Source: Rhea pennata (Eukaryota; Chordata; Aves; Rheiformes; Rheidae). From it: 64,000 nucleotides of DNA. Positions 21,101-61,700 of the stretch are shown here, one piece after another. The first letter of the stretch is position 1; the number at the start of each line of letters is the position of its first letter. Made by a program: the position numbers and the translations under genes. The notes beneath the pieces are model-generated. The model did no database searches and was not told the origin of the DNA. It saw only the letters and a program-made list of their open reading frames with translations. The DNA lies in NCBI RefSeq assembly GCF_028389875.1, contig NC_084678.1, positions 14,724,899-14,788,898 of the forward strand, written 5' to 3'.

Positions 21101-24100
21101 CATGGAATTGTCTTTATTTTGCCCTGCTTGTAAAGTGTTTAAGGACTCGGTTGTTTCTGCTGCTGCATCTCTGTATTAGATATGAAGTTACAAGAAGTCT
21201 GTCTGTATGGGGGAAGACTCAAAAGTTGTCTCTACAGTCTTTCTGCTGAGGGCCTCTTTAAAGTTTAGAGAAAATTTGAATTTTTTTGGAAACTAGTAGA
21301 GAAGACGGTATGGGTTCTCTGATAATGATTATGTATATATGGCACAAACCAAACTCATTTCATCCTTGTGAAAAGCTAGAAATTTGAGTAATTTCTAAAA
21401 TGTGCAACTATCTTTAAGACAGTTTTCTAATAGGCATGCAAGATCAGAAAATGAGAGCTGTTTGTTTACAGAAAGGGGGGGAGGGGTTGGTCTAGGTTCT
21501 TTCACCCCCTCCTCCTTTATTTTAGCCAATAAAACCTTTCAGGTACAAGAATGACCTCTCTGGACCCAGAGAGGTGCAAAAAAAAAAAAAAGTTGTTTCT
21601 AAATCTGGTTTTTTTTTATCTTTATGGAAGGTGGGCTGGGTGCACTGACGGGTCCTGGGCTGGCTAGTTTGCTTGGAAGTGGGGGACCACCAACCAGCAG
21701 TTCATCATCAAGGTAGGATACCTATGTGATCTGAATTTGTAATATTTTTGTAATGTAAAATTGCCACTCATGTGGGAGGAATTGTGACCTATTAAACAGA
21801 GAGTATAATGGGAATTAAGATTGCTTAATGCTCTCTAGAATGAGAGTGGTAGCTCTTTTTTTTTTGCAAGGGCTTGAAAAGAAGGTTTCTCGGGGGGAGA
21901 GTGGAGAGGGCAAAACTCTTTTTGCAGGTAATTAGTTATACTAATTACCTTCCAGCTCTCGCAGCCAGTCAGCTGCTGTGACACCATCTTCCACAACCTC
22001 TTCTACGCGTGTAACTCCTGCCCCATCTGTTCCTGCGGCTGCATCTGTGACCAGTCCGAGTCCTGTACCGAGTTCGGGTAATGGAACCAGCTCAGCCACA
22101 AGCCCAACCCAGCCCATTCAATTGAGTGACCTTCAGAACATTTTAGCTACTATGAATGTGCCATCTGGAGCAGGAGGACAGCAAGGTAACAGTATTCTGA
22201 CCAGACAGCTGTTGGATCCAGGAGTCCTTTGGAGCTGTTTTACTGTCCTATCCTGTTCCAAATTGGTTTGAAAGGTCTCTTAAATTTTTTTGTTCTTTTT
22301 TTCATTTGAGTGCCATTCTTTTTGACTGCTTCAAGAATCTTAATCTTGTTCCAAAACTGAGAGTGAGCAAGGATGCCAGCAATTTGCTCAATACACTTCA
22401 GTACTCCACTGACAAAATCATTTGGTTAGCGTGGCAAAATGTGTTTTTTTTGTACATAGTCTAACAATCAACCATTTTTCTTCCTAGTTGACTTGGCTAC
22501 TGTTCTGACTCCTGAGATAATGGCTCCCATTCTGGCCAATGCTGAAGTTCAAGAGCGGTTAATGCCTTATCTTCCTTCAGGGGAATCTCTGCCACAGACA
22601 GCAGAAGAAATTCAGAATACTCTGACATCTCCTCAGTTTCAGCAGGTAGATGCCTAGCTGTCACTGAAGTGCAGCTCTCCTTTCCTCCTTCCCTACGTGG
22701 GGTGACTTGTGTTGCCCTGCTTTTTCAGGTTTTTGCCACAGTTCAGAGCAGGAAGCTATTCTGTAGACGTGGAAGCGGGGAAGGATGTGACTTAATGAAA
22801 GTCACTATTCACTTTTTCCTTCCTTCCTGTGGTTGCCCAACGGCAGATTAGAATATTTTACCTTCTCTTTTGGAATTGGGCTTTACCTTTCTCTGTACTA
22901 TAAAGGCCATCTCTGGCAAATTACAGCAGATGTTGTAGCAAATTCATTATTTTCTTTTTTAAAATGACTTCTACACTGTCTTAAAAATAGTTTCAGGTGA
23001 CTGCACAAATGATTGGAAGGGAAAGAGGTGCTGGTGTTTACATCCTTTTTTTTCTTTTAAAACACTAGTATGTAATTCAAAGTATGGTTAGGCATACTTT
23101 TATCAGGTTAATTTTGGTTTATTGTAGGCCATCTCAAACTATGCATACTGAAATTTGTCATACAAAATTTCATTGGCTAAGAAGGATGTCTTTAGGTTAA
23201 ACTATGACAACCTCTTTTGTGCAGACAAGACTTCAGAAATGAAGGATATTTTTCATTGGATATTTGATAGAGTATTCTGCAGGTAGATAAAAGCTTAAGT
23301 AAGTTGTCCATGCTCTAAATTAGCTGGAAGTTATGTCACTGTGGTTTGGGGTGCTGCTAAGTCTATGTTCTAGCAGGGCATATCAATTTGTGCTTTTTGC
23401 AGCAGTGTCCCTGGCTTTATGGTATCTCGAGTTGGTTAAAAGCAAGTATTGTTCCTGATGATTGCAAAATACTCACAGGGCCTGTGGTGACAAGAGGCAG
23501 TTCAGAGCCTGACCACAGTGCAGTATTTTTTTTTAAAGGTGGGAGGCTGCTCCCAGATAGGTCATACAGTCAACATACTGTAATAGGTTATGGAAATGTA
23601 CAGAGAGAGAATGCTGTCATCATTATAATATTACATGGCAGCCATGTAGTGTTGGAAAAAAAAACAATGCGAACTTTGTTTGATGCTGTTGACTTTAATC
23701 CACAGGCATTGAGCATGTTCAGTGCTGCCTTAGCTTCTGGACAGCTTGGCCCTCTAATGAGTCAGTTTGGCTTACCAGCAGAGGCGGTAGATGCAGCAAA
23801 TAAAGGTGGTAAGTATTTATGTTGTTGAGAGCATGATTAAGTATCCCTTTTGCATTGTACATAAATGTTGCATGTAGATGCTGAGTAACTTACTTTCCGA
23901 AGTTTACTCTTGTGCTTTCTTAAAACGAAAACGTATGTATGTATGTGGCTCAGGTTTTCTTCAGCAGATGCAGCTAGTGCTGTCAGACTGACATTAGAGA
24001 ATTCAGGGTTCTGCAAAGAGATGTGCTGAGTAGCTTTGTGACTGTTTTCTTGAAAGCAAGAGATACAAAAGATTCTGGAAATGTCATAGTCACCTTGTTT

Positions 24101-52700: not shown

Positions 52701-55700
52701 TGTGATAAAGCAGAAAAAAAGCTGAGGACTCTGTCTTTGCCATATTGTCCAAGGACTGATTCATCTACTCCTGCTGTGATTCATCTACCCCAAGCCTCTT
52801 GCTCAGAGCTGACCATACCTGTAGACACACGGGTAGAAGGTGAACGTGCCCTGCTGCATGGCTAAGTGTGGCGAGCTCACAGCAACACCCACTGTCTGCA
52901 AAGCATTGGTATTGGCGTACTCCACCACCAGCATGTATTTCCCAGGCTGAGGAACAGGCAGAGACAGCTGGACTTCCACCTGGATGAAAGAGACACGACT
53001 AAGCGGGGGTCTCCTGGCCCCCGTTCCAGAGTGAGAGCACGTAGGACGCCCATGCTGCCAACTAGCCTTCTCTGGAACAAACCTACACCCCCAAGCCTGC
53101 ACCCCCCACTGCTGTTTGCACCTCTCACAGGTACAGACACCCAGCAGCACTCATTTGTAGCATTTCAAGTGGTCCTGACTGAAAAGGTTCTCCCAGCTCT
53201 AGTCCTCAAAGCAATCTGCCCTTGTCTCTGTGCAGAATAAATCAGGGTAGCAGGTGCCATACTCAAAAGCATGTGCTACATGTTTGCCTGAGGTCATCTG
53301 CTCCAGGTTTATACCTTAAGTTTTAGCTCTCTGTGTCCATATGTCTGCAGAGGGTATCTTCATTTCTGCTACTTGTGGGCTGTAGGCTCCCAGGGATATG
53401 AGCCAGAGCTGCAGGGGACTTAGGGGACTCTTGCGACTCATCACATATGTCCTTGCATGCCCTTTTAATGGGAGACGCTGCTTTTGGGTGCCTTGACGAG
53501 CAGAGCATGCAAACACATGGGTACCAGACTGATGGGGAAACAGGGATGCACACAGGTGCAAAGCCCTTCGAGCAACCTGCCCTGGTGTACGCAAAGCACA
53601 AGATAGTGGGAGCAGAGGAATCAGTGCTGCAGTGCCTGTGTGAGGGATGAAACAGAAAAGCTACTCACATCACTGCCACTGCACGTTGCCATCTGGGGAT
53701 GGGAGGGAGTGAGTTGCTCCATGGGACATGCTCTGGGTAACCGGTTGTCCAGCCTGCACACTGCCTCCACTCCTGATGCAGTGGGGAAGCCATCCATCGA
53801 CAAGTACTTATACAAGAGGCAGCTAAAAGCATTAGGAAAAGATTTGCAAAACACTGTTGTTACACTGAGATTGTAAAGGAGCCAAGAGCAATTCCAGTGA
53901 GAGTTGGTGTCCCTGCCCCACCATCTCGCAGAACGTGAATTGAATATATTTCGTAACCCCAGGCCAAGAGGAGCTCAGTAGGACCCCAGTAGGACCCAAA
54001 TAGCACACAGACGTGGAGATCCTTACTTCTGCGTGGCTCTTTCCAGGGGTGGCTGGTAGGTACATGGCTCTGTGACCTTCAGCTGCAGTATTGGAGCCTC
54101 ATAGTATGAGCTGGGTAGCAAAACCAGATAGTCCTAGCAGGAAAGAAGGGAGAGGATGTTATGTTTGGGATACGTGCTCCTGAGCAGCTGCTGAAGCCCC
54201 CCTTGGTGTATGGAGGCCAGTCCTTACCAGCAACACACCCTCGGCTTCAACAACCAGAGACCAGGTGCTGGGGTTGAGTACAAAGGGCTCTCCAAAGCTG
54301 TTCTGGGGGACGGTGACAAAGGCCGGTTCCGTGCTGGGAGCAAAGACGATCTGCTTGGTCTGCTCTGTACCTAAGGTGGGAAGGACAAGAGGCTGTGAAG
54401 GCACTGGGGAGGGGCTGGGAAACCTGGGGCTGCAAATTGGGCAGGAAAGCAGCTCTGCAGTGCAACGCGGAGTCCTGGGCTTGTGGTTTCTTGGAGCTGC
54501 TGTAGTAGATGCACCATAGTCCCACATTGACCCATAACAGACAAATCCACATTGAATCTGTCCAGTAACTTAGTGGGAGAAAAAAAAATCATGGCAATCC
54601 TTAATGCTAATCCACAGCCCTCACAGTGTGCTTTGCATCCCTGGATTGCAAAGCATTGAGTATTGCATGCCAAAGAGCATTTTGCCAGCTAGAGAAGGAA
54701 GGAATTCATCTATGAAGAATTTCTTCTGAGACAGACAAAAAGAATTGCCCAGATACATTTTTCCACAGGGATATTCCGACCCCAGCTTCCCAGGTCAGAT
54801 ACCTGCTTTCCAGCAAACTCTCAGACCCCGAAACTTTGCTCCTGTCTTTCCTGCTAGCCACAGATTCTCTACAGCTGAGATTCAGACATTCATTTTAACT
54901 GACAGGACAGAATGCATTTAAAGCCTGATCTTCCTGCTGTTGAACAGCTCCTTGGTTCAGCTGACATTCTCGTAACCCTTGAATTCATTATCTTTGGATG
55001 CAATAACCTAGAAACAGACTGCCTGCCTGCCTAGCAGTCTCAGAAGTGTCTTGAAGTGCATGGACGAAAGAGATTCACCAACAATCATCCCCACGCAGCT
55101 GCATGGGGAGCAGATGAGATGAAGAAGTGGGGAACTTCACACACACAGCTGCCAACTATCCTGGTGTGGTCAGGGACATCAAGGCATAACCCAGAAGAAA
55201 AGACGCTATAGCAGGGGCTTGTGCTACTCCTGGGAGTGACCACCACTTTCCATGTGTGCTATCTCTAATACATGACCAGCATTAGGTGAGGCCAAGCCCT
55301 CACTTTCTCAGAGAGGAAGCAGAGAAGGTGAGGATGCAAAGGATGAAGAGCATTTCCCTGAACAGGCAACACGGGGCAGATGTCTCAAAGAGCTGAAGTT
55401 TGACATCTTTTGGAGAGGGTACACATCTCAAATTGAAATGCCTTGTGGAGATGGGAGTGGGAGAAACCGGTCTGCAAATCACACACTCAGAAAAGGCTTC
55501 CCTTTTCACAGGCCAGATCTTCTGACTTATATTTTTCAGGCAGGGAGAGATTAAACTAGCACAGTGTGCTAGTTTCTTTCCAGGCCACTTGTCCCTCACC
55601 ATTTGAAACCCAGGTAGAAGGTGGTTCCACATTTCTGGAGCCAATCTGGTGTAGCAAAGGAGTTGCCCTCCTGGGCCCATTTGCTAGTCTATTAGTCTGG

Positions 55701-58700
55701 CAGTTTGCCTTCAGCTCTAGAAAATCAAATGTTGCTTCTGGGCAAGTAGGAAAGCACATTACAAAGCAAATGAGCTCTGCCACTAGATAGGGCAGATTAA
55801 ATCCTTCCTGACCCTTGGTGGGATATTGAGGTATGAAGGTGGCTCACACTTCTCCTGTCTTTCTGCTGCATAACATGACTGGCCACAAAAAAATAACCAG
55901 ATCTTTCACTCAAAAAAAAAAAAAAAAGTGGAATAATAGTATCTTGGCATTTCAAACTTGGTATATCATCTCCAGCTGTTCACAAGTCAAAACATCTTCA
56001 ATGTCAATTCAAGACAAGGGAGAGAACGTCACATGCTGATAAATTAGGTAACTTGTGTTGACTTGCTCTGTGCACATGTGGTCTGGAGGGAGAACCTCAG
56101 CGGGACAGTATGTCTGTAGAGTCATCAGAGTGGTAAAATCCATCAGATAGCTCTGCAACAGTGCGCTTGTACAGCCTCAGTTCTGGTCTCACATGATCTT
56201 GCTCATGCTGATTGCCAGGATATTCAATGCAGAGGTCTCAAGGTTTCTTCAGTCATCTCTTCTGGCTCTTATTCCTCTTCAGCAGCTTATGTTGTGATTG
56301 CAGCTAACCACCAGAGTGCAATACTGGCAAAATGTGTGCAATTACACGCCACTTCCAAACCCAGCACCCTCGTAAAACCAGCAGCCTGGTTTGGGAGAAG
56401 CACAAGGCAAGGACAGCCCTGCCATGGGTGGAGACCTGAGAAATAAAACCAGGTCCAGCTGCCAAAGTCTGGATCCAGTTCCCAGCACTTGGCCCACTCT
56501 GGTTTTGTGGAAACTCACAGTTTTGCCTGGGGCACCAAGGTGACACTCCTCTGTCCCCTGCAGAGAAAGCTGTATCCAAATGTACAGCAGCCTCATCCAA
56601 CAACAGGCTAGCTGGTGCCAGTCCTCACCCTGCACAGCCCCAGGACAGCACCATGCTGCTGCTTTGTTAAATTAGGGGGCTGCAGGCTTAAACTAGCCTT
56701 TGAGTCGGAAAGGCAGGACTTATGGGATAAAGCCATATGGAAGTGTCTTCTGGAAAAGATGATGCAGGAGGTTGCCTGGGATGGGGAGGAGGTGGCGATG
56801 GTGCAGGGGAGCAGAGCGGTCTGCAATCCTTACCTCTCCTTCGTGGCTGATAAGCTGTAATTTTGCCATACACATTGGCCCCTTCTGAATTAATATACCT
56901 CAGGATGACATGGAACAGATAGAGCTCTGCCTCCTCCACGTCTACAGTGACTCTGACTTTATTCTGCAAAAAGCAAAAAAGCACATCGGGCACACGTCAC
57001 TGGGGGGCCAGCTCCTGGCCGCTCGCCCGCTCCGTGGGAGAGCCTTAGCCGCCTGCCTACCTGCCTGCCTGCCTGTCTTGCTTCCCCCTCCCCAGCCATC
57101 ACGGGGCGCCACACCGGCCGGTCTCCTGGGACCGGCGCACCTGGGGGCAGGAGAAGGGCCAGAGGCGCAGCGTTGCAGAGCGGGATGGGCTGAGTTAGTC
57201 TAGAAGTGAAAAATGCACTTACAGTTGCCACACACATTAAACTTTCCTTCCTCAAGGACCGAGACCCTCCCTTGCACACTGGCAGGCCCCCGGCTGACGT
57301 AGCGGAAGACGACGCGGAAGAGGTCGGGGGAGGTCACATTGAGAGTCACCACTACCTTGGGCTGGTGGGAGAGAGAAAGGGGAGAGAAGCAGAGCACACC
57401 TTCAATTACCTCCACCGCTGCCCGCCGCCAGCCCAAGCGCAGCCACTCGGCACACTGCTCCCAAAGCAACATGCCACAGTGCAAGGAGGAGACAAGCAAC
57501 TGGCCCTAGCACGCAGCCCAGGGACAAGGCGGCACGGCGTTTCCACACTGCGATCCCATCCCACCCAGAAATTAGACCAAAGTTGGCTGTGGATGGGGTT
57601 AGAAAGGCTCTGACAACATCTAGAAGATGTTCTCACGCAGTGGGGTGGGTTGGCTATGCTGGGGCACATCTCACCTAAGAGGAAAAGTTTTGAGAAGTTC
57701 TTTCTCTTGTTATCAGCATAATGTTGCTTCTGGGCTTTGTGCCACAACCCACCAGCAGGTATCGGATGCTAAAGCACCTGCTCTTGTGCTTACAGGTCTC
57801 CTGCCCAGAGACCTCCAGAGAAGGCTGCAAATGGAGCCCATATCTCATTCACGGGAACTAGCAAGAGTAACGTCTGGTGCTGCGAAGGGAGAGAGGGTAC
57901 CCAACCCTCTGCCTGCCCCTGTGCCAAAAGACATCGATTAAGCAGATGCTTAAGTCCTACCAATTTCAAAGATATCTAAGCACCTGCTTAAACATCCTCC
58001 TGCATATGGGACAAAGCAGGGGTTTGCCCAGGGACATTTCCAGTGAGGACTGTGTTCCTTAAAGCTCCAATTACACACCATCTGCTCAGAGCAAACTGGA
58101 AGGACCTTTCAGAGAGCAAACTACAGAGGAGACCTTCCAGCAGTAAGCCACATGCTAGTCCTTCTGTCGAGGCCTATTCCTATCTCAAATGGCAACACTG
58201 GATGCAAAGTAAAGGCCATAGTCTTGACACTCTTTCTTAAGCTTTAAGGCTGAGTTTTTCTCAAACCTAGTGCCTACAAATTGAATGGGAAATAGTTAAC
58301 ATATCTGGCCCCACTATTATTTCTCCTACGCAGGAAAAAAGTGAGGAAAATAGAAATACAAGCATTAGAATAAGCAACATCTCATATAAGACAAGACTAC
58401 AGAAATCACATCAGAGATCCCTGTGCTACACTCTGTACCCCACACGCACACAGACACATAAGCGACACTTTTGTAGGGGCCATGCAGAAGAAGAATCCAC
58501 TGGGGGGAAATAGATGAAATAACTTCACCTCTGGGGCTTAGACAACTTCAATTTACATAAACCACTTTATGACAAACCATTTATCAGCAAGAGTCTGTGC
58601 AGAGCAGTAACAAGAAGTTCAAGCTGAATACAGCAGCCAAAAAGAAGCTGCTTTATTTTTGGAAAAGGGGAGGAAGGTTAAGCAAAGAGTTGCAGGAAAG

Positions 58701-61700
58701 AGCAGAGTCAGATGAAAGAGCCACAAGCAAACCCAGAGACAGTGTTTATAGACATCCCTGTAAGTAATTACCAAGCTACCACCTTTGTCTAACTGGATTA
58801 GGCTGTCAGGGAATTCCCAATTTAGGATCTTTCCTCTCATCAGTCTATGCTGTCCCTAGCACTACAGGAAATCTCTGCACAAACAGGCTATATATACACT
58901 GCACTGTTTATGTTGGCCACCATGTGACTTTGGGGCTTTGAGAAGCATTTGGGGTGAAAGACGAGTGCCAAAACTACGTCAGCCCTCTGGCCATCTGTAT
59001 CCTCCCTGGCAGGGAGTGAGGCTGGGACGGAGACGACAGTCATACCTGGATGGAAGACATCTGTGCATATCCTCGCCAGCTGAAGTTCTCAAACTCCAGG
59101 GGGTTGTAGCCAAAGCGCACAGCCCGGCCAGCCGGCGTGGTGCCTTCTTCCAGCTCGAATTTCAAGTGGTGAAGGTCAGGAAAATAATGGTCTCTTGTAG
59201 GTCTGGAGAAGAGAGGAAGTGCCATTAACTGCTGGGCTAGCCAGACAGAAGAGCTCTCACCTCCCCAGCTAACATCTCCTTTAGCTTTCTGACATTAGTA
59301 GTGACCCTTGTGGGCTGCACATCAGTGTGTCCTGCTTGGGGAGAGCACCCTGGACTGATCACCTCCTCATGGGTATTTGGGGACACCGGAGGCAGGAGGA
59401 AACCTCGCTGGAATCAACACTGATGAAGCCGTGGCGCAGGAGATGAGGTATCCAGCACAGAGTGGCTTCAGTAGAGGAAAGGGGACATGGAGCATCCATC
59501 AGCTGGATGCCCACCACCTGCTAGGGGACAGGCCAGTATGTGGGGATCTCCCGCCAGCACGCACAGAGTGAACCCTATGTGGGTGGCTCTTACTGGGTGC
59601 ACATGGGACCACGGGTGTTCTGCCTGCAGGGACAGGCTCCGGTGCGCTCCTCACAGGCTGGCCCCACCGAGCCACCGACGTCGCACTGGCAGCCTGAGGA
59701 CAGGAAGCATATGTTTACATTCCAGCCATGCTAACGAGCTCCTGATAGCGCTAATCAAAAGCGCACCCGGCCCGGAGGGGAGGCCAGGGTGCTATTTTTA
59801 TTCCATTGTATCCGTTTTCATACTGGCCCCAGCCCCATTTGGATCAGCTTCTCCTCCACCTCAGCACTGAGCTATTTCCAGGTGGCCAACAGTCACCGGG
59901 AGGAGCAGAGGCCTGCGAATCCTCATGGTCCAGCTGTGAGCCCAGGCTCTCTAGCACCCAGGTTGCTTTCTCTTCACAGCCTAACCAGAGCTCCTCCTGC
60001 CTCTTTCTCTCCTAGAGTTCCTCCCACCCCTCTTCTCAAGGGCATGGAGAAGAGAAGCCTCTACAACCTTTCATTCCCCTTAGCCTGACTGATCTGTGCC
60101 CACTGGTGGCAAAAGGGTGAACTTAGGCCTCTCAGATCCTCAGTAAAACCTCTTCCTGCTCCATACCTTGATATGGTAAAAGCAAATGGTAGGACATCTC
60201 CCACAGCCCTGCTCTCCAAGGCTGCCATCCACTTATTCCAGGGACTGGCTCTTGTGGCCCCCTCCTTCATCAGACCTAACACACCATGAAGGCAGCTCAC
60301 CTTGGCAGCCAAAGTAATTGGCTTTGTCCATATTGAAGTATCCGTCTTTGCATGTCGAGCAGAGCTGCCCGCAGATGTTTGGTTTGCAGAAACACTGCCC
60401 ATTGCCCTAGGAGACAGCAGGCATGGGAATCGGTTAGAGACCCCACTCCTTCCCTATGGCTCGTCACAGCCAAGCTGTTTCTTGGCTGCTTGGGTCCTAG
60501 TTTGAGACACTGGAGAATTTTGAGCTTCATGCTCTGCACTGCTTCCTGTGCGTGGGTGGGCTAGAAAAGAACTAGATAAGTGCAATTACCCAACACATGC
60601 AAACAAAAATCCAGGGATGCTGGGCCAGACCCAGAAATATTTAGGTGCCTAATTTATGACAGATCTTAATCCTATGTTCTCATGCAAGCCCAGACTATGG
60701 TGCAAGCTCTGAGTGCTCAGTGTCGGGACAGGCCTCTACAGCAGCTGTCAGGAGAGACATCATCGAAACGCCCTCCATATAGCACAGGCCTGGAAATGCC
60801 TGGATGCAGATCGGAGCAAACTTACCTGCTGACACTCTGCAATTCCACTGATGGTGCCCTTGGTATCACACTTGCAGCCTAGAGATGGGAAGAAGAAAAA
60901 TAAGAAAGCCAGAAGATCAACACAGCCTCTGAGAAGGGTGTTAGTAGCCTGATGGAGGACAGTACCTACCGTATCAGAGGACACCAGCTGTGACCTCTGT
61001 CTGGGATTAGAGAAACTGAGGGTAGCACTGCCAAAGGGTTCAACTTTCATTTTGGACAGTTACAGCTGCAGATACAACTACTAAAGGCATTTGACTTTTT
61101 TGCACATCTCTCCATGAAAACCCAAGTGTGCAAAGTCTGAACGGAGGGCTGAGAATGCCACAACTCACTGCATGAACCCTGCCAATTCTATCCTAAATGA
61201 AAAGCTCCAGACTGCAGCCTTTTCCCTCCCCAGGCATGGCTTACTCAGACCATTACAGCTGTGACATGTCACCTCACGTTGAAGAATGAAGGAAAGATAC
61301 CACTTCCAACTGATAGTGATGGTGCCCACTGGCTTGGGTTTGGGTCTCGCCCCATTACAGCATGGTGGGGCATTCTGGGGCCACACAAATAGCATTTTCT
61401 TACTCATGCAGCCGTAGGGGTTCTCCGGAGTCAGGTTCCAGTACAGCGGTTTGCATCTGTCACAAGCTGGACCTTCAACATATGCCCGACATGCACAGGA
61501 ACCCTGAGAAGGGATGGAAAGACAGGAGCAGGTGAGAGCGGCAGAGTTTGCACCAGCATGGCTGAACATGAAATCTGCTCCTCTGGAGTTGGGAAGGGCT
61601 GCTGGCGGTACTGTGCTTAAGGAAGCACTTGGCCCAAAGGGAGGATGAGGGGATCAAGCAGAGGTGAGCTGCAGAGCTTGGTAGGTGTATTCAATACTCA

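Follow-up and report, generated by a model that had tools for sequence, protein, structure and literature searches.

The LAMA5 gene of Rhea pennata raises the question of why a laminin alpha gene should carry, between the same two neighbouring exons, a pair of short exons that encode alignable versions of one and the same protein segment. A first-pass annotation of the window (the whole 64-kb stretch of DNA that was analysed) had proposed that the two exons are spliced in a mutually exclusive manner. The gene occupies the minus strand of the window and was identified through a 39-residue LG segment that matched laminin subunit alpha-5 (5xau) in a PDB search with an E value of 2.3e-17, this being its sole PDB match at E ≤ 0.001. 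On the plus strand, the end of an open frame at 23388-23828 resembles ADRM1; ADRM1 is a known neighbour of LAMA5, and the presence of an ADRM1-like frame is in keeping with conserved gene order. A stretch at 25188-25066 on the minus strand is 51-54% alike in protein to two places in the LAMA3 region discussed below, and presumably represents a CR1-type repeat. The two short-arm globular domains of LAMA5 are named L4a and L4b (PMC8883398). The segment encoded by the exon pair lies in the first globular domain C-terminal to the first LE array, so that the domain, called L4b in the first-pass annotation, should in N-to-C order be called L4a. The label L4b was presumably derived from the older name IVb.

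All exons of the LAMA5 region in question are read on the minus strand. The upstream shared exon (59046..59202, minus strand) ends in ...MSSIQ with a complete Gln codon at 59046, i.e. in phase 0. It is followed by the exon hereafter called A (57223..57361, minus strand; 139 nt), whose peptide ends in ...VCGN and whose donor reads ACT/GTAAGT, then by an intron of 259 nt (56964..57222, minus strand) that has the motif ACTAAC 24 nt from its start and an AG-free stretch of 34 nt at its end, and then by exon B (56834..56963, minus strand; 130 nt), with the donor GAG/GTAAGG. The downstream shared exon (54228..54370, minus strand), ending in ...EGVLL, provides the GT of the junction codon, which is TGT (Cys) when preceded by A and GGT (Gly) when preceded by B. 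The boundaries read at 57361-57223 and 56963-56834 bear out the claim that both exons begin in phase 0 and end in phase 1. The further claim that the two, 259 bases apart, specify versions of one segment is likewise upheld, as 13 of 41 aligned residues are identical, which is 6.7 SD above shuffled sequences, and the homology of the predicted A and B segments is beyond chance. Either exon joined to the next one leaves the frame open. Using both gives an immediate stop, just as had been stated, since A joined to B reads ...CGN and then TAA TAA (T/AA at the junction); using neither indeed shifts the frame into the exon at 54370, and a stop follows once 65 codons have been read past the junction.

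At 46% of its third codon positions exon B (56963-56834) has G or C, as opposed to 67% in those shared LAMA5 blocks that were compared. When the initial 37 kb of the LAMA5 minus strand were matched against themselves for further exon duplicates, the neighbours listed (within 3 kb, bit score above 28) were mainly pairs of LE repeats, with a few other short matches; the A/B pair itself was absent from this list, so that an equally divergent pair elsewhere would be missed.

The same arrangement was encountered in a second gene. Whole-genome searches covered the 1.27-Gb assembly (180 contigs) of this one genome. Exon B together with the next exon returned seven rows at E ≤ 10, two of them being LAMA5 itself, two belonging to a single gene on contig C2 (E values of 7e-10 and 7e-7), and the remaining three being at chance level (E 2.8 to 8.7). 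A query joining A to both of its shared neighbours also returned seven rows, three in LAMA5 and four on C2. We take the C2 gene to be LAMA3, as a human LAMA3 peptide matches C2 at 78%, compared with 62% for LAMA5 and 56% for a third locus. Within the 30 kb of this gene that were read (C2:114930000-114959999), an A-type exon occurs at C2:114948522-114948660, has exactly the length of LAMA5 A (139 nt) and shares with it 21 of 44 residues, and a B-type exon of 133 nt occurs at C2:114948852-114948984 and shares 22 of 43 residues with LAMA5 B. The two are 191 nt apart, lie in the same order as in LAMA5 between the counterparts of its two shared exons, and both run from phase 0 to phase 1, matching LAMA5. 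Their own similarity (12 of 42 residues identical) is 5.5 SD over shuffles. When searched against the genome at E ≤ 10, each returned two rows among the best candidates scored, namely itself and its LAMA5 namesake (LAMA3-A against LAMA5-A, 49%, E 3e-4; LAMA3-B against LAMA5-B, 54%, E 6e-8). A search of viral and prokaryotic contigs with the 50-residue peptide of the upstream exon found no relatives, as expected.

The frame logic is repeated in LAMA3, where the A-B junction likewise creates a stop (T/AA TGA) and omission of both exons leads to a stop after 40 codons. The A exons of both genes end in T ahead of the GT donor (position 57223 in LAMA5), T being an unusual last exon base in this context. 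The TAA at the A-B junction of both genes arises because A ends in T and B starts with AA. LAMA3 is thus a second gene with a probable A/B switch. The likeness of form B to human LAMA3 pointed out in the first-pass annotation has deeper roots than was realised there; form B is not a LAMA3-like oddity, as LAMA3 carries an A exon too.

Comparison of the two genes provides a measure of constraint. The proportion of nonsynonymous differences (pN) between LAMA5 and LAMA3 comes to 0.30 in A and 0.27 in B; the two shared neighbours have 0.27 and 0.19, and shuffling of codons gives 0.74 (A) and 0.75 (B). The corresponding pS values are 0.46 for A, 0.84 for B, and 0.92 and 0.96 for the shared neighbours. 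At the protein level, the A exons of LAMA5 and LAMA3 are 48% identical and the B exons 51%; both values fall within the 28 to 81% spanned by 12 shared blocks and under the median of these, 57%, the blocks being chosen from tblastx matches between LAMA5 and LAMA3 and assumed to be constitutive. The upstream shared exon (59195-59046) has 34 of 50 residues in common between the genes and the downstream one 28 of 47. A and B are conserved between the genes about as much as the shared neighbouring exons. In a neutral simulation of LAMA5-B, with indels set at 8% of substitutions, the frame and the splice dinucleotides were kept in 43%, 22%, 7% and 3% of cases at distances of 0.05, 0.1, 0.2 and 0.3 substitutions per site, respectively; for LAMA3-A the survival at 0.1 was 0.24. 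A long-standing function of the exons is supported by these comparisons of predicted coding sequences, with a small probability left for the recent death of one of them.

At synonymous positions, codon choice in the A exons of LAMA5 and LAMA3 coincides at 10 of their 19 shared residues, where 4.8 matches would be expected (P 0.009, unadjusted), possibly reflecting splicing signals within the exon. Pooling A and B gives the same codon at 20 of 41 shared residues (11.5 expected, P 0.003), and set against the shared exons (89 of 241) the pooled figure has a Fisher p of 0.10, so that the case for splicing signals constraining the synonymous sites of A and B is suggestive only.

To place the exon duplication relative to the gene duplication, we analysed 41 hand-aligned columns of the four exons (A and B of LAMA5 and LAMA3). 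The best topology unites the two A forms with each other and the two B forms with each other (AA/BB). The AU test gives the two alternative topologies p values of 0.005 and 0.026 under LG+G4, 0.007 and 0.026 under JTT, and 0.0005 for each at the nucleotide level (GTR+G4), and a distance bootstrap recovered AA/BB in 9745 of 10000 replicates, the two alternatives appearing 18 and 237 times. Within the 41 columns, six substitution sites and two insertion columns back AA/BB, one site groups the sequences by gene and three group them crosswise; both B forms have a two-residue insertion (LY) and Asn at the start, and both A forms start with Pro. Since the AU tests reject a separate duplication in each gene, the A/B pair would predate the split of LAMA3 and LAMA5, and since LAMA3 holds both A and B, the B exon of LAMA5 would belong to a pair that the ancestral gene already possessed. 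The exon duplication thus seems to be older than the LAMA3/LAMA5 gene duplication, an event placed at the base of vertebrates.

All four exons have AG acceptors and GT donors. The donors, GTAAGT (LAMA5 A), GTAAGG (LAMA5 B), GTAAGT (LAMA3-A) and GTAGGT (LAMA3-B), match the nine-position consensus at 7, 7, 7 and 8 positions, respectively. Judged against the U12 donor consensus, all four are U2-like, and U2/U12 incompatibility is not supported as a cause of exclusion. Steric exclusion through a distal branch point was rejected, because the AG-free stretches before B are short (LAMA5, 34 nt; LAMA3, 39 nt), so that the branch points are expected near B and away from the donor of A; the ACTAAC motif in the LAMA5 A-B intron is separated from B by many AGs and was discarded as a distal branch point. 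RNA pairing across the exon pair gave a mixed picture. In LAMA5, pairing of the region upstream of A with that downstream of B beats 100 of 100 shuffles, and the other two comparisons stand at 5 and 21 of 100 shuffles; the three LAMA3 comparisons stand at 37, 46 and 68 of 100. A pairing signal is thus present in LAMA5 and absent from LAMA3. A search for conserved intron regulators, comprising eight comparisons of flanks or introns between LAMA5 and LAMA3, revealed no significant likeness and hence no conserved element, the lowest p being 0.076. The A-B intron contains two copies of TGCATG, the RBFOX site, in LAMA3 and none in LAMA5. Mutually exclusive splicing as proposed in the first-pass annotation draws its backing from the frame logic, the splice sites and the conservation at the protein level, which together make A and B good candidates for such a pair.

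What the choice of exon would mean for the protein is most apparent in potential modification sites. Taken together with the next exon, LAMA5-A has two sequons, NVT and NCT, and a CxxC motif whose second cysteine codon is split by the splice junction. LAMA3-A contains NYT at a nearly matching place (residue 44 versus 46) and no cysteine. The B forms of both genes, again with the next exon, are devoid of sequons and cysteines. The difference in predicted sequons between A and B is common to both genes. The suggestion that the switch removes a pair of cysteines therefore holds for LAMA5, where A has the CxxC and B does not, and fails for LAMA3, whose A form has no cysteine. Pfam searches with the two LAMA5 forms or with the four aligned members gave no family at E ≤ 10, and no laminin was matched for the A/B domain in PDB. 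Two of the PDB rows for this domain were one designed repeat protein (E 0.007 and 0.009), the single stretches of which scored E 5 or worse, and two others were unrelated proteins (E 1.3 and 1.9).

Several explanations of these data have to be weighed. We consider it highly probable, on the genomic evidence, that LAMA5 has in A and B two functional, mutually exclusive homologous exons, which go back, like the LAMA3 pair, to an exon duplication in the gene ancestral to both. An unlikely alternative is that each gene has a single working exon, A in LAMA5 and B in LAMA3, the other exon being a relic lost recently in the lineage. We take human LAMA5 to be A-type and human LAMA3B to be B-type, and human peptides align at 65% to LAMA5-A and at 50% to LAMA3-B, as such an alternative would predict; nor would brief neutrality necessarily have left a mark, given the simulated survival at 0.1 substitutions per site of 0.22 for LAMA5-B and 0.24 for LAMA3-A. 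Yet none of the four exons is broken, their conservation between the genes is roughly that of the neighbouring shared exons, and exons dead for a long time would be hard to recognise at all, synonymous sites being saturated in B and its two neighbours (pS 0.84-0.96; 0.46 in A).

Still less credible is that exon B serves as a poison exon, which, spliced in after A and creating TAA, would lower LAMA5 levels via nonsense-mediated decay without any B protein being made. The stop at the A-B junction of both genes agrees with this notion, but a poison exon needs no conserved protein, and B not only retains its frame, its phases and 22 of 43 residues in comparison with LAMA3-B, with a pN of 0.27 against 0.75 for shuffled codons, but also stays in frame when used without A. 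The least probable explanation, to which we attach hardly any weight, is that the pair is not ancestral, A and B having arisen by separate duplications in LAMA3 and in LAMA5 or having been homogenised between these genes later. Gene conversion could also cause the sharing of codons between the A exons (10 of 19 against 4.8 expected, P 0.009, unadjusted), but these are merely 48% identical in protein, so recent conversion would not have occurred, and the tree with independent duplications is rejected by the AU test (p 0.005 and 0.007 for protein, 0.0005 for nucleotides).

If A and B are indeed alternatives, each laminin alpha chain would use one of them to build a single segment, probably part of a beta-sandwich, of the first short-arm globular domain. 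Both forms would be spliced in vivo, the choice presumably being made, as a default guess, by cell-type-specific splicing factors. Since in LAMA5 as in LAMA3 the two exons together give a stop and the lack of both shifts the frame, nonsense-mediated decay would clear such errors, and RNAs with both exons or with neither would be destroyed. The switch would alter the surface of the domain, since N-glycosylation sequons close to the end of the segment (in LAMA5 also the CxxC) are present in the A forms and missing from the B forms, and would thereby probably affect binding by the domain or secretion of the chain. A broader scenario, plausible but falling somewhat short of probable, is that an A/B switch in the first short-arm globular domain of the ancestral alpha-3/5 gene was kept by both vertebrate descendants, that mammals specialised them in opposite directions, and that Rhea pennata retains A and B in each of the two; exon choice could then tune basement membranes, with A glycosylated and B bare, matching the X1/X2 choice of an integrin.

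A switch kept in two paralogues since before their split would point to a part of the domain for which two versions are useful, and would give experiments a direct point of attack. LAMA5 is an essential gene, and mice with a missense change in its L4a develop nephrotic syndrome with reduced laminin secretion (PMC8883398). Should the alternative exon exist in mammals, disease variants there would escape exome designs and annotations restricted to one form. The titles and abstract openings surveyed did not mention the A/B pair, and annotation databases may hold form-B isoforms unremarked; laminin is likewise not mentioned in the main texts of PMC9741552, PMC5740500, PMC4465641, PMC9013439 and PMC7954323, the supplements of which might list a case. 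The laminin exons very probably represent a new and ancient pair of mutually exclusive homologous exons in two genes, a known kind of switch in a new place. To our knowledge, the variants LAMA3A, LAMA3B and LaNt alpha-31 involve an N-terminal change or truncation, and none of them exchanges homologous exons within the first globular domain. These three are described as alternative products of a laminin alpha gene (PMC9788559).

Exclusive homologous exons predating vertebrate gene duplications have been described in tropomyosins, alpha-actinins, dynamins, plasma-membrane Ca ATPases and the enigma family (PMC4465641), and the laminin exons resemble the pairs of these families in being homologous, apparently used one at a time, shared by paralogues and older than the gene duplication. 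Unlike those families, the laminin pair resides in an extracellular-matrix gene and is here predicted from genomic sequence. In OGDH, two alternative exons, 4a and 4b, are likewise separated by a short intron, and their exclusivity is attributed to distant branch points (PMC7969005). The laminin pair differs in this respect, its AG-free stretches of 34 nt (LAMA5) and 39 nt (LAMA3) pointing to ordinary branch points. Tropomyosin and alpha-actinin are also of the distal-branch-point type. A parallel in terms of the protein is integrin alpha-7 (ITGA7), a laminin receptor in which a swap of the either-or exons X1 and X2 replaces one segment of the extracellular domain and changes the preference for laminin isoforms (PMC12564407). 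X1 and X2 act on the receptor side, in a beta-propeller, whereas the laminin A/B pair would be a switch on the side of the ligand.
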